Part shown: positions 4,202 to 24,178 of the stretch, one piece after another
How the letters are laid out: the number at the start of each line of letters is the position of its first letter
Numbering within the stretch: the stretch's first letter is position 1
Assembly (NCBI RefSeq): GCF_019711495.1
Contig: NZ_JAIGNM010000001.1
Location: 1,240,001-1,304,000 of the forward strand
Direction: 5' to 3'
Length of the DNA: 64,000 nt
Origin: Qipengyuania xiamenensis
Lineage (GTDB): Bacteria; Pseudomonadota; Alphaproteobacteria; Sphingomonadales; Sphingomonadaceae
Made by a program: the position numbers and the translations under genes
The notes under the pieces: generated by a model
Told to the model about the DNA's origin: nothing
What the model saw: only the letters and a program-made list of their open reading frames with translations
Databases searched by the model: none

Positions 4202-5065
4202 CTAGATATCCTCGCAGATCCGCCCGTAGAGTTGCGGGCGTCGATCGCGGAAGAAGCCCATGCCCGCACGATGCTTCGCCGCGCGGTCGAGGTCGAGCGT
4301 CGCGACAAGAGCCCCGGTGTCCGAAGCGCCATATTCCTCGATCAGGTCGCCCCATTCGTCCGAAATGAAGCTATGCCCGTAGAAGCTCTGCTGGCGGTCG
4401 GCCGGACCTTCATGGCCGATACGGTTGGCAGCACAGACAGGCATGCAGTTCGACACCGCATGGCCGATCATCGCACGACGCCACATGCGGCTGGTGTCGA
4501 GATCGGCATCATAGGGCTCGGAGCCGATAGCAGTCGGGTAGAACAATACTTCGGCGCCCTTCAGTGCCATCACGCGGGCGCATTCGGGATACCACTGGTC
4601 CCAGCAGACGCCGACACCGATGCGTGCACCGAACACGTCCCACACCTTGAACCCGTCATTCCCGGGGCGGAAATAGTATTTTTCCTCATAGCCCGGGCCA
4701 TCGGGAATGTGGCTCTTGCGGTAGGTGCCCATGATCTCGCCATCGGGTCCGACCATGGCGAGCGTGTTGTAATAATGGTGGCCGTCGCGCTCGAAGAAGC
4801 TGGTCGGGATTGCGACGCCCAGCTTCTTCGCAAGCTCCTGCATCGCCCTGACGCTAGGGTCATCCGCCAGCGGCCTGGCGCGGGCGAAAAGTTCTTCCTC
4901 CTCCTCGCGGCAGAAGTAGTCGCCGGCGAAAAGCTCGGGCGGCAGGATCACCTGCGCACCCTTGCTCGCGGCCTCTTCGACCAGCGCGGACACGGCAGCG
5001 ATATTGTCGGCCTCGTCCGGTCGGGCGAGCGGCAATTGCAGGACGGAAACGGTCAGTTCTCTCAT
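4202..5065 (-). CDS. aguB: N-carbamoylputrescine amidase
   Basis: This is a 287-residue carbon-nitrogen hydrolase of the nitrilase superfamily that converts N-carbamoylputrescine to putrescine, CO2 and ammonia in the agmatine route of polyamine synthesis. The catalytic triad is visible: Glu44 in LPPELF, Lys117 in YRKSHIPDG and Cys154 in GVGVCWDQWYPE. The family-typical GYEEKYYFRPGN and CAANRIGHE segments are present. Length is normal. No agmatine deiminase gene (aguA) is visible nearby, so the partner step must be encoded elsewhere. It lies 12 bp downstream of the SIMPL gene in the same direction and 4 bp before the small unknown gene. Confidence 0.93.
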   Translation of the reverse strand: MRELTVSVLQLPLARPDEADNIAAVSALVEEAASKGAQVILPPELFAGDYFCREEEEELFARARPLADDPSVRAMQELAKKLGVAIPTSFFERDGHHYYNTLAMVGPDGEIMGTYRKSHIPDGPGYEEKYYFRPGNDGFKVWDVFGARIGVGVCWDQWYPECARVMALKGAEVLFYPTAIGSEPYDADLDTSRMWRRAMIGHAVSNCMPVCAANRIGHEGPADRQQSFYGHSFISDEWGDLIEEYGASDTGALVATLDLDRAAKHRAGMGFFRDRRPQLYGRICEDI

Positions 5066-5077
5066 GGGAGAGATGCG

Positions 5078-5845
5078 TTATTTCTCCCGAAGCGCGAAGT
5101 CTACCTGGATATAGACGTAGGAGCGCGTGGTACCGACCATCATGCCGGGCGATCCGCTCTCGGGACGCGGGCTGATCGCCAGCGGCGGAGGCGGGGGCGC
5201 GACAGGGGCGGTCCGCTGGACCATGGCCTCGTTCATCACCTCGGCACCGCGCAGCCAGGTGTTCCCCTGCTGCCCGCCAGCATCGCGAATATAGAGCACG
5301 CGGCTGATCTCCATGCCGGCGGCTTCGGCATAGGCCTCGGCACGGGTGCGCGCCGCCTTGTAGGCATCCGCATAGGCAAGGTTCGCCACCGCTTCGGGAT
5401 CGCTCATCGTCAGGCTCGGCCCGCCGAGGACGTTGGCGCCGGCTTCGGTCACGGCGGTCACTGCAGCGCCTGCTGCATCGGGATCGTCCATTTTCACCTG
5501 GAAGACATTGCTGGCTTGGTACTGGCCCTTGCGGTCTCCCCATTCCACCCGGCGAACGGAGACATTCTGCGTCTGGATGTCCTCTTCGGCCACGCCCATT
5601 TCGCGCAGGGCCGCAACGATCTCGGCCAGCTTTTCCGCATTGGCTTCGCTGGCGGCCGTGGCGCTGCGCGAGAAAGTTTCGACACCCGCATTGAACTGCG
5701 CACGGTCGGGGCGGCTCTCGGCCTGACCGCTGGCGCTGACCGAGAGCAGCGTTTCGCCATGATCGACGCCGCGCGCCTCGTCCGCGCGGTCGCTGCAGGC
5801 GGCGAGCACGAGCGGGGCGGCCGCGGCAAGAATTAGTTTTTGCAT
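5078..5845 (-). CDS. SIMPL domain (DUF541) lipoprotein
   Basis: The start at 5845 is chosen because GGAGGGA lies seven bases upstream. The 255-residue protein begins MQKLILAAAAPLVLAACSD, a lipoprotein signal with lipobox LAAC, so it should be anchored in an envelope membrane. The body is DUF541/SIMPL: LLSVSASGQAESRPDRAQF, alternating helix and strand, and the region ending in YVYIQVDFALREK. Related proteins (for example Brucella BP26) are oligomeric periplasmic proteins of uncertain role. The ribosome binding site sits in the 3' arm of a perfect hairpin (see 5851-5887). It heads the operon with the amidase. Confidence 0.88.
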   Translation of the reverse strand: MQKLILAAAAPLVLAACSDRADEARGVDHGETLLSVSASGQAESRPDRAQFNAGVETFSRSATAASEANAEKLAEIVAALREMGVAEEDIQTQNVSVRRVEWGDRKGQYQASNVFQVKMDDPDAAGAAVTAVTEAGANVLGGPSLTMSDPEAVANLAYADAYKAARTRAEAYAEAAGMEISRVLYIRDAGGQQGNTWLRGAEVMNEAMVQRTAPVAPPPPPLAISPRPESGSPGMMVGTTRSYVYIQVDFALREK

Positions 5846-5850
5846 AAGAA

Positions 5851-5887
5851 AATCCCTCCGATGTAACACTATTACATCGGAGGGATT
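5851..5887 (-). terminator. Perfect 16-bp inverted repeat: intrinsic terminator whose 3' arm contains the SIMPL ribosome binding site
   Basis: On the minus strand the arm AATCCCTCCGATGTAA, a 5-nt loop, and its exact reverse complement TTACATCGGAGGGATT are followed by TTCTTATG. The stem plus the TTTTCTT stretch fits a rho-independent terminator for the upstream methyltransferase gene. The GGAGGG in the 3' arm is also the ribosome binding site of the SIMPL gene, seven bases from its ATG. Read-through RNA would therefore both tend to terminate and hide the start site. The dyad centre (TGTAACACTATTACA) could instead be a DNA operator. Confidence 0.8.
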
Positions 5888-5919
5888 GCAGGGTTCGGAT
5901 TAACGCCGGATGGACGCCC

Positions 5920-6744
5920 TCAGTCTGCCTTCTTGAAGAGCAGCGTCATGCGGTCGCTCTCGCCGATGGCGAGATAGCGGTCGCGGTCCTGGTCGCCGTA
6001 ACGAAGCACGGGAGGCAGCGTCCATACGCCACCTTCCCAGTTCGCCGGATCGTTAGGATTGGCATTGATCTCGCTTTCGGCAGCCAGTTCGAAGCCGTTG
6101 GCCTCGAAGATCGCCACCACGTCCTGTGTGCGCATGTAGCCGCGCTGGCGCGCGCCATAGTCATCATAGCTCGCGCCTTCGGGCGCGCGGTGCTGGACCA
6201 CGCCGACCATGCCGTCATCCTTGAGCATGACGCGCGCGGCCTTGAGAACCGTGTCCGCTTCATTGCCGATGTTGAGGCCGTGCATCGAGCGGAAGATCAG
6301 CACGCGGTCGACCGTGCCGACGACATCTTCAGGCATCTCGTCGATCTCGAAGACCTTCACATTGTCGCCGTTGACGCTTTCCTGGCTGGTGGCGGCTTCG
6401 AAGAACCGTTCCGTCCAGCCCTTTGCGCGCGCTTCCTGTGCGCGGTCGCGATAGGTGCCGCCGTCGCTGTCCTGGTCGAAGGCGATATAGGTACCCGCCT
6501 GCGAGATATAGGGCGCGAGGACGCGGCTGTACCAGCCTCCGCCCGGGCCGTATTCGGCAACTGTCATGGTCGGTTCGACGCCGAAGAATTCGAGCGTTTC
6601 CGCGGGGTGGCGATACTGGTCGCGCGCACGGTCGTCATCGCGCAGGTCGGCGGCGAGGACTTCTTCCAGGTCGGGTGCATGATCGTCGGCAGCAAGCGGG
6701 GAAGCAATTATCGCGGCAGCCGCGACAGAAAGGAACAGACGCAT
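5920..6744 (-). CDS. Exported class I SAM-dependent methyltransferase-like protein
   Basis: The start at 6744 has GAGGAGA seven bases upstream, and the frame remains open above it. The 274-residue protein begins MRLFLSVAAAAIIASPLAADD, a Sec signal peptide, then shows the methyltransferase nucleotide-binding loop VAEYGPGGGWYSRVLAPYI and VDRVLIFRSMHGL. It belongs to the sphingomonad and proteobacterial group of predicted periplasmic methyltransferases. An S-adenosylmethionine enzyme outside the cytoplasm is hard to explain, so the real ligand may differ; this is inference. It is followed by the hairpin terminator at 5851-5887 and is divergent from msrA. Confidence 0.8.
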   Translation of the reverse strand: MRLFLSVAAAAIIASPLAADDHAPDLEEVLAADLRDDDRARDQYRHPAETLEFFGVEPTMTVAEYGPGGGWYSRVLAPYISQAGTYIAFDQDSDGGTYRDRAQEARAKGWTERFFEAATSQESVNGDNVKVFEIDEMPEDVVGTVDRVLIFRSMHGLNIGNEADTVLKAARVMLKDDGMVGVVQHRAPEGASYDDYGARQRGYMRTQDVVAIFEANGFELAAESEINANPNDPANWEGGVWTLPPVLRYGDQDRDRYLAIGESDRMTLLFKKAD

Positions 6745-6847
6745 ATTTTCTCTCCTCGGGGAAATGCGAAGCTGTCCCTGCCCGTGCAGCGCACGGATGA
6801 CAAGGTGGTTACCGCTTCCTACATGGGGCGCCGAGAAGGAGATTTGC

Positions 6848-7384
6848 ATGGCTCAGGAACAGGTAATCGTCGCAGGCGGATGCTTCTGGTGCACCGAGGC
6901 GGTGATGAAGGACGTGATCGGCGTGAGCGAGGTCGAAAGCGGCTATATCGGCGGCGACAAGCCCGACCCGACCTACAAGGAGGTCTGCACCGGCAGCACC
7001 GGCCATGCCGAGGGCGTGCGCGTCACTTTCGACAGCGAGAGCATCACGCTCGACCAGATCCTCGACGTCTTCATGGGCACCCATGATCCGACCCAGCTCA
7101 ACCGCCAAGGCAACGATGTCGGCACCCAGTATCGCAGCGCAATCTTCCCGACCGAGGATCAGCGCGGGGCGGCAGAGGCAGCCATCGCTCGGTGGAACGA
7201 GGAACACCCCGGCCAGAGCGCGGTGACCACCATCGAAACCGGCGAGTGGTATCCTGCAGAAGACTACCATCAGGAGTATTGGGAAGGCGAAGGCCAGCGG
7301 AATCCCTATTGCCAGGCGGTGATCCCGCCCAAGCTCATGAAGCTGCGCAAAAGCTTCCAGAAATACCTGAAAGAAGACGCCTGA
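6848..7384 (+). CDS. msrA: Peptide-methionine (S)-S-oxide reductase
   Basis: MsrA reduces methionine-S-sulfoxide in proteins and as the free amino acid. The 178-residue protein has the catalytic motif GGCFWCTE, with the nucleophile at Cys12. It is followed by GYIGGDKPDPTYKEVCTGSTGHAEGV (split here as GYIGG and TGHAEGV), HDPTQLNRQGNDVGTQYRS and EDYHQEYW, all diagnostic of MsrA. The start at 6848 has GAAGGAG upstream; an in-frame extension to 6764 lacks family similarity. The MsrB enzyme for the R epimer is encoded separately at 22870-23274. The flavoprotein gene follows 23 bp later, probably in one transcript. Confidence 0.97.
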   Translation: MAQEQVIVAGGCFWCTEAVMKDVIGVSEVESGYIGGDKPDPTYKEVCTGSTGHAEGVRVTFDSESITLDQILDVFMGTHDPTQLNRQGNDVGTQYRSAIFPTEDQRGAAEAAIARWNEEHPGQSAVTTIETGEWYPAEDYHQEYWEGEGQRNPYCQAVIPPKLMKLRKSFQKYLKEDA

Positions 7385-20487: not shown

Positions 20488-20508
20488 GGCGGCTCACTCC
20501 GAAACGAA

Positions 20509-20545
20509 AAGGCCCTCCCGGTTCGCGCCGGGAGGGCCTTTTTCT
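20509..20545. terminator. Intrinsic terminator between convergent degP-like and PBP genes
   Basis: The arms AAGGCCCTCCC (20509-20519) and GGGAGGGCCTT (20530-20540) close a 10-nt loop and are followed by TTTCTTT on the plus strand. AAAA precedes the stem, so it can also act on the minus strand. Confidence 0.92.
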
Positions 20546-23806: not shown

Positions 23807-24178
23807 CATGCTGCAACTGCACACCTGCACTGCAACACCGGTTACCCCTTCACATAAGTGACGCAATTCTCGCGATTCGCACCGGGAAATGAGTGCTTTT
23901 CGTTGTAATTCAATCACATGAACGAAGGTCTGCGGGGTAGCGGTGAGTCAACAAGTTTATTTCGACTTTTTTACAGTTATCCCCCTTGCGACTCATCCCG
24001 AGCGCGACCTACACAATGGGAACTCTCGGGGGGGACAGCCCGGGTTTTCACATCGATGGCAATAGGGGGGAACTCGCGGACACCGATTCTGCGAGACGGC
24101 GGAGCCGTGCCGAACCTCCTGGCGCTACACAAAATATGGATTAGCCCTTGGACGGGCTGCTCGGGGGATTGAAGCACG
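23807..24178. other. Gene-free region upstream of dnaA
   Basis: No coding sequence is supported here. The stretch has an AT-rich patch (about 23950-23980, with TTTTTTACAGTTAT) and three G-runs of five to seven bases near 24027, 24064 and 24165. Several short dyads are present, such as CTCGC/GCGAG near 24075-24095 and ACGGC/GCCGT just after. It must contain the dnaA promoter and a probably structured leader. I searched for DnaA boxes (TTATNCACA) and found only poor partial matches, so an origin here is not supported. Confidence 0.5.

Follow-up and report, generated by a model that had tools for sequence, protein, structure and literature searches.

The 64-kb window (the whole stretch of DNA that was analysed, 64,000 nucleotides) contains, close to one end, a SIMPL gene followed after 12 bp by aguB, with a further reading frame lying upstream on the same strand. 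The residues of this upstream frame from its likely start on gave no Pfam or NCBIfam match, and "methyltransferase" is the label given to it in the original prediction. Thirty-two nucleotides separate its stop codon from the stem of a hairpin, which is located in the 74-bp intergenic gap between this frame and SIMPL. The positions of the genes, the hairpin and the parts of the hairpin are collected in Table 1.

Table 1. Features of the SIMPL-aguB locus, with positions counted from the first letter of the window
Feature	Position	Strand	Basis
aguB, N-carbamoylputrescine amidase	4202..5065	-	TIGR03381, 432.8 bits (cut-off 410.25)
SIMPL (DUF541), predicted lipoprotein	5078..5845	-	PF04402, E 6.6e-39; lipobox LAAC by reading
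Whole inverted repeat / RNA hairpin between upstream gene and SIMPL	5851..5887	-	Sequence, repeat search, RNA folding
Outer 3' arm with Shine-Dalgarno	5851..5860	-	Sequence, arm pairing, accessibility
GGAGGG, Shine-Dalgarno of SIMPL	5854..5859	-	Sequence; 8 nt before ATG
17-bp core ATGTAATAGTGTTACAT (minus strand), predicted Zur operator, GTNA-N5-TNAC	5861..5877	.	Published-box matrix, genome pattern scan
Outer 5' arm	5878..5887	-	Pairs kept through two-sided changes in orthologs
Second conserved block, consensus GTMAGC..GTTCAT	5899..5915	-	Column conservation, 29 sequences
Upstream same-strand reading frame	5920..6849	-	List of reading frames; likely start 6744 by reading

The two arms of the repeat (5851-5866 and 5872-5887) are 16 nt long, 100% complementary and 5 nt apart, which confirms the perfect 16-bp inverted repeat with a 5-nt loop that had first drawn attention to the site. 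Read on the minus strand, the order is AATCCCTCCGATGTAA TAGTG TTACATCGGAGGGATT TTCTT ATG, the last three letters being the SIMPL start codon at 5845-5843. An extra U-G pair closes the hairpin, giving 17 pairs and a 3-nt loop. The 16-bp stem is the longest perfect stem (loops of 3 to 8) in the window, the longest in 20 simulated sequences ranged from 9 to 12, and a repeat of this length is far beyond chance. RNA folding yielded z values of -6.5 for a 57-nt piece and -5.5 for 131 nt, with a stem of about -25 kcal/mol in folded RNA that carries both outer arms. The Shine-Dalgarno sequence does lie in the 3' arm, as had been claimed, at 8 bases from the SIMPL ATG instead of the 7 originally counted, and its complement CCCTCC occupies 5879-5884 in the outer 5' arm. 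The TTTTCTT described as following the stem is present as written, but its first two T's are part of the 3' arm. The next longest stem of the window, a perfect 15-bp one at 20507-20542, runs into TTTTTCTTT between convergent reading frames and is probably an intrinsic terminator.

A close SIMPL ortholog (E value of 1.3e-70 or better) was found in 20 of 37 same-genus genomes, the window's own included, with G002 and G004 giving fragments only. From 45 SIMPL loci we obtained 29 distinct same-genus upstream sequences, leaving out L020, whose box lies far upstream, and counted pairs without gaps, with the sequences lined up on the core; a MAFFT alignment had gapped the arms. Across the 29 sequences the letters of the inner 17 bp are retained (ATGTRAYRNYRTYACAT), whereas the outer arms vary. 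Over 8 outer positions, 218 of 232 cells are paired, with two-sided changes at seven of the 8 positions and 20 extra pair types, counts that are inflated and not independent given that the sequences are related (21 distinct arm combinations). Reshuffling the 3' arms among the sequences gave a mean of 161 paired cells (sd 5.3, maximum 180 in 2000 shuffles) and slid registers gave 103 to 147, while pairing within the core showed no excess (178 paired cells versus 177 in shuffles). By the pattern of change in these sequences, the outer arms act as an RNA stem would. The original prediction had suggested looking for conservation of the repeat in related species, and the alignment bears it out, with at least 7 of the 8 outer pairs in 27 of the 29 sequences and the core letters kept. 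The two exceptions, L018 and L019, form 2 and 3 of the 8 outer pairs and have other possible start-site foldings by eye. In L018, the left half of the operator can pair, by our reading, with AATGTCACATG, a stretch that holds the SIMPL start codon, so that the start would be hidden in another manner. Also by reading, pairing extends into the start codon in L005, L065, and L138.

We calculated how accessible the Shine-Dalgarno sequence would be in RNAs with different 5' ends. In a long RNA holding both arms, its mean unpaired probability over the 29 sequences is 0.04, with four of them (L007, L018, L019, and L047) already at 0.21 to 0.37. The mean rises to 0.33 for RNA starting at the first base of the core and to 0.40 for RNA starting at the core centre. 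For the window's own RNA, removal of the 5' arm raises the predicted value from 0.00 to only about 0.23, as the freed Shine-Dalgarno then pairs weakly with the coding region. The compensatory changes in the outer arms and the burial of the Shine-Dalgarno in the modelled long RNA favour the start-site-hiding hairpin of the original prediction.

The inner 17 bp, on the evidence of motif and gene context, are very probably an operator of the zinc repressor Zur. A 13-bp matrix, built from 11 published Caulobacter and Paracoccus Zur boxes with the weak Paracoccus norC site left out, placed the SIMPL core first among 63,988 window positions at 13.9 bits, a narrow lead of 0.8 bits over the runner-up (13.1 bits, inside another reading frame), followed by a site of 11.5 bits. 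The third-best position of the window, 23903-23919, carries a Zur-box-like GTAATTCAATCAC and falls, by reading, in the gap between rpsT-like and dnaA-like genes. The merC and ZnuD-like sites described below score weakly with this matrix. PadR, CRP-like and BlaI-type operators were other candidates considered for the core.

In the 2.8-Mb genome to which the window belongs, the core pattern has two sites with no mismatch, two with one and four with two, compared to one site for the reversed control, and these counts rule out a generic repeat. Both zero-mismatch sites precede genes, SIMPL and a YfbK-like vWFA gene, and the one-mismatch sites belong to a ZnuD-like TonB receptor and a MerC-domain gene. 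The receptor, a partial protein, has ZnuD as its best NCBIfam match with 202 bits against a cut-off of 950. Among the four two-mismatch sites, one is 115 nt upstream of where a cation-efflux reading frame has its first start, and another precedes an ExbD gene. With at most one mismatch allowed, the pattern was found in 43 of 60 same-genus genomes and its reverse in 6 of 60.

A matrix trained solely on 27 SIMPL-upstream cores was then applied, with a threshold of 10 bits, to 31 COG0523 loci (the best 30 of the search plus L155), scanned over the 1.5 kb that precede the CobW_C match. Sites above 10 bits were present before 12 of the 31 loci, compared to none in the reversed control and one downstream, and all 12 are among the 18 loci that score best for the family. 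In L155, one of these 12 and from a genome of the same genus, a two-mismatch site lies 14 nt before a zur-like gene, which is followed by the COG0523 gene. The original prediction had allowed that the dyad may be a protein site; the GTNA-N5-TNAC motif, the COG0523 sites and the matrix rank predict a Zur-type operator, in line with that guess, which had missed the link to zinc and the differing constraints on core and arms.

The box is also kept before the MerC-domain gene in seven loci (L069, L045, L046, L059, L060, L062, and L064; PF03203 matched in L069, the others assigned by reading). This gene is divergent, by reading, from a ctaA/cox15-like gene, and by eye possible -35 and -10 hexamers flank its box and the start is nearly leaderless. 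Before the YfbK-like vWFA gene the box is kept in eight loci (L067, L037, L041, L042, L043, L048, L053, and L055), of which L067 has a Pfam match and the others were grouped by similar upstream DNA; judging from the box, this gene is a possible Zur target.

Several results do not fit the Zur assignment as well. No box was found near the genome's own zur-like gene or at the two ZnuA loci, and the box before the ZnuD-like gene occurs with at most one mismatch in a single one of 30 orthologous loci, its own. The genome encodes two Fur-family proteins, one of which (L075) is Zur-like: among NCBIfam models it matches Zur PRK11639 best (E 7.4e-18), at 64.8 bits where the curated cut-off is 167. With 64.8 and 64.9 bits, the Zur-like proteins fall far short of the cut-off of the Zur model. 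ZnuA (PF01297) turned up in just 2 of the 119 genomes of the family and is therefore uninformative as a test of Zur identity. Zinc uptake in Sphingomonadaceae probably relies on carriers other than ZnuA.

The arms do not accompany the box at other genes. Twenty-eight boxes outside SIMPL (7 merC, 8 vWFA, 12 COG0523, 1 ZnuD-like; for L170 the site scored is a stronger one elsewhere in that locus) have 1 to 5 of the 8 outer pairs, and the arms therefore do not belong to the operator. The search for SIMPL in other genera gave 27 loci from 35 matches, with a core within 3 mismatches in 14, only within 4 or 5 in 8 and none in 5. The 14 cores lie either close to the start or some 80 nt ahead of it, one half often being TATCAT. 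The 11 loci with a near box have 8, 6, 8, 3, 6, 5, 2, 5, 4, 3, and 1 of the 8 outer pairs, the two complete sets outside the genus belonging to L077 and L079, and four far boxes have 3 to 6. With arms so patchy outside the genus, it is the operator that extends more widely, and firm retention of the arms is limited to the genus of the window.

The second conserved block, GTMAGC..GTTCAT, sits 22 to 38 nt upstream of the 17-bp core. Of the 29 orthologs, 21 have a GTTCAT-like hexamer at exactly the same place and 6 more have it shifted by one base, as judged by eye; the pattern GTCAG-N5-GTTCA of this block gave no match in the 64-kb window. The block is possibly a promoter element or an activator site. 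A scan with consensus promoters found none at SIMPL, where no convincing -10/-35 pair could be picked out by eye. Sigma-70 hexamers could be placed by eye at merC and vWFA and not at SIMPL, for which we therefore claim no start site.

We think it likely that the locus holds a Zur operator nested in an RNA hairpin that hides the Shine-Dalgarno sequence, with the transcript starting inside the palindrome and read-through RNA remaining silent. The hairpin, the conservation of its pairing, the Zur-type motif and the company of zinc genes are supported by the comparisons above. We infer, in addition, Zur binding to the core, a transcription start within the palindrome and read-through as far as the hairpin. 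With ample zinc, Zur on the 17-bp core would block the SIMPL-aguB promoter, and any read-through RNA from the upstream gene, holding both outer arms, would fold so that SIMPL is poorly translated. Under zinc shortage Zur would leave and transcription would begin inside the palindrome, producing an RNA that lacks the 5' arm and has its Shine-Dalgarno free. The state of the promoter, and not stray read-through, would thus set whether SIMPL is made; the original prediction had likewise proposed a start in the loop and insulation from upstream transcription.

The hairpin could instead be mainly the intrinsic terminator of the upstream gene, its overlap with the ribosome site being a by-product of the short intergenic gap, but we consider this unlikely. 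The stem of the window does run into TTTTCTT, the hairpin has the most pairs of 14 terminator-like sites in a 20-kb scan (a number of sites that does not exceed chance, with 12.6 in shuffles), and many orthologs have a T-rich spacer, with at least 5 T among the 8 bases that follow the arms in 15 of 29 and a mean of 4.2. The arms, however, pair in nearly all orthologs, yet a run of at least 4 T follows them in only 9 of 29, and 9 of 29 have at most 3 T among those 8 bases. The clear terminator of the same window at 20507-20542 runs into TTTTTCTTT. At SIMPL the tail would be the spacer, placing termination at the start codon. As the T-run is not kept, we rejected termination as the main conserved function, and this part of the original prediction is not supported in that role; termination may still take place in some species, that of the window included.

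Two other readings each keep one half of the element. The palindrome could be a Zur operator only, with outer arms that lengthen the DNA site to take additional Zur dimers; by the COG0523 sites and the published-box matrix, the core is a box of the Zur type, and E. coli Zur reportedly binds as more than one dimer. This seems to us distinctly improbable given that the letters of the arms change while their pairing stays and that the arms are missing from the 28 boxes found at other genes. We give as little credence to a cis-acting RNA switch, in which the whole hairpin would be present on all SIMPL RNA and a ligand, heat, a helicase or coupling to upstream translation would open it. The conserved block upstream of the hairpin could be a promoter, and GTTCAT as part of a promoter starting before the hairpin could count against our model. 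Against a switch, the hairpin has no Rfam family match at the gathering threshold, the letters in the loop conform to the operator, the stem is highly stable and the upstream stop codon is probably too far away for a terminating ribosome to melt it. An Rfam riboswitch or leader was also sought over the whole window, which gave only a tRNA at the gathering threshold. A stem present on all SIMPL RNA would mean that the Shine-Dalgarno and its complement are both kept for a gene that can barely be translated.

The nested operator and hairpin lead to a bolder proposal, which we hold to be plausible though somewhat short of evenly balanced. The locus would be a composite element in which the operator is the loop end of the hairpin, the DNA form repressing transcription and the RNA form erasing translation of transcripts started elsewhere, and Zur would control SIMPL-aguB as an envelope/polyamine operon whose expression is strictly confined to zinc shortage. 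If true, a tightly repressed gene right behind another one could be kept silent without a terminator by reusing its operator palindrome as RNA, and palindromes made of an operator plus arms may be a general means of making repressed genes blind to read-through. Such elements would have a searchable signature: core letters conserved, arms conserved as pairs, and a Shine-Dalgarno in the 3' arm. The model also proposes a role in zinc starvation for the SIMPL lipoprotein and aguB, and extends the predicted Zur targets of Sphingomonadaceae to the MerC-domain genes and the YfbK-like vWFA genes.

The SIMPL core shares the GTNA-N5-TNAC architecture with the boxes of Caulobacter znuGHI, znuK, and znuL and of Paracoccus znuA, zur, and aztA. 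The extracts of the two reports give the Caulobacter box as GTTA-5N-TAAC (PMC4176598) and the Paracoccus boxes as GTAACGTAATAACAT and kin (PMC5387054). Like known Zur boxes, the motif precedes COG0523 genes and a zur-like gene in Sphingomonadaceae. Unlike the published boxes, SIMPL-type half-sites favour GTGA/GTAA and TCAC/TTAC, sometimes TATC, and their target is SIMPL-aguB. Word searches found neither "SIMPL", "DUF541" nor "aguB" in the Caulobacter paper (PMC4176598), no DUF541 in the Paracoccus paper (PMC5387054), where the two matches to "simpl" are the word "simple", and neither "SIMPL" nor "DUF541" in a Zur review (PMC6103462); in PMC9548881, a SIMPL protein and Zur are named in unrelated places. 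The arrangement of an operator within a hairpin was not found among the listed titles and abstract openings of open-licence literature on Zur with MerC, SIMPL or sphingomonads, on Zur with ribosome-site hairpins, or on operator palindromes with Shine-Dalgarno and read-through, and may be published elsewhere.

An operator palindrome and a read-through-silencing hairpin each have precedent, and their combination is not known to us. In the IS10 and IS50 transposase genes, transcripts from outside fold over the translation start and those from inside do not; the likeness to SIMPL is protection from outside transcription, and the differences are that the repeats are the terminal ones of a mobile element and that the palindrome holds no operator. 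CIRCE, the operator of HrcA, is a DNA palindrome that also forms an RNA hairpin before the start codon, but it is conserved as letters, whereas the outer arms at SIMPL are conserved as pairs. A precedent for the RNA half is provided by the hairpins of phage T4 gene e (lysozyme) and I-TevI, which, in the extract of PMC3014915, bury the ribosome binding site in RNA started far upstream, as we propose for SIMPL. An internal start is demonstrated for T4, whereas at SIMPL it is proposed. T4 uses late promoters for timing, whereas at SIMPL the core of the palindrome would be the operator of a zinc-sensing repressor.
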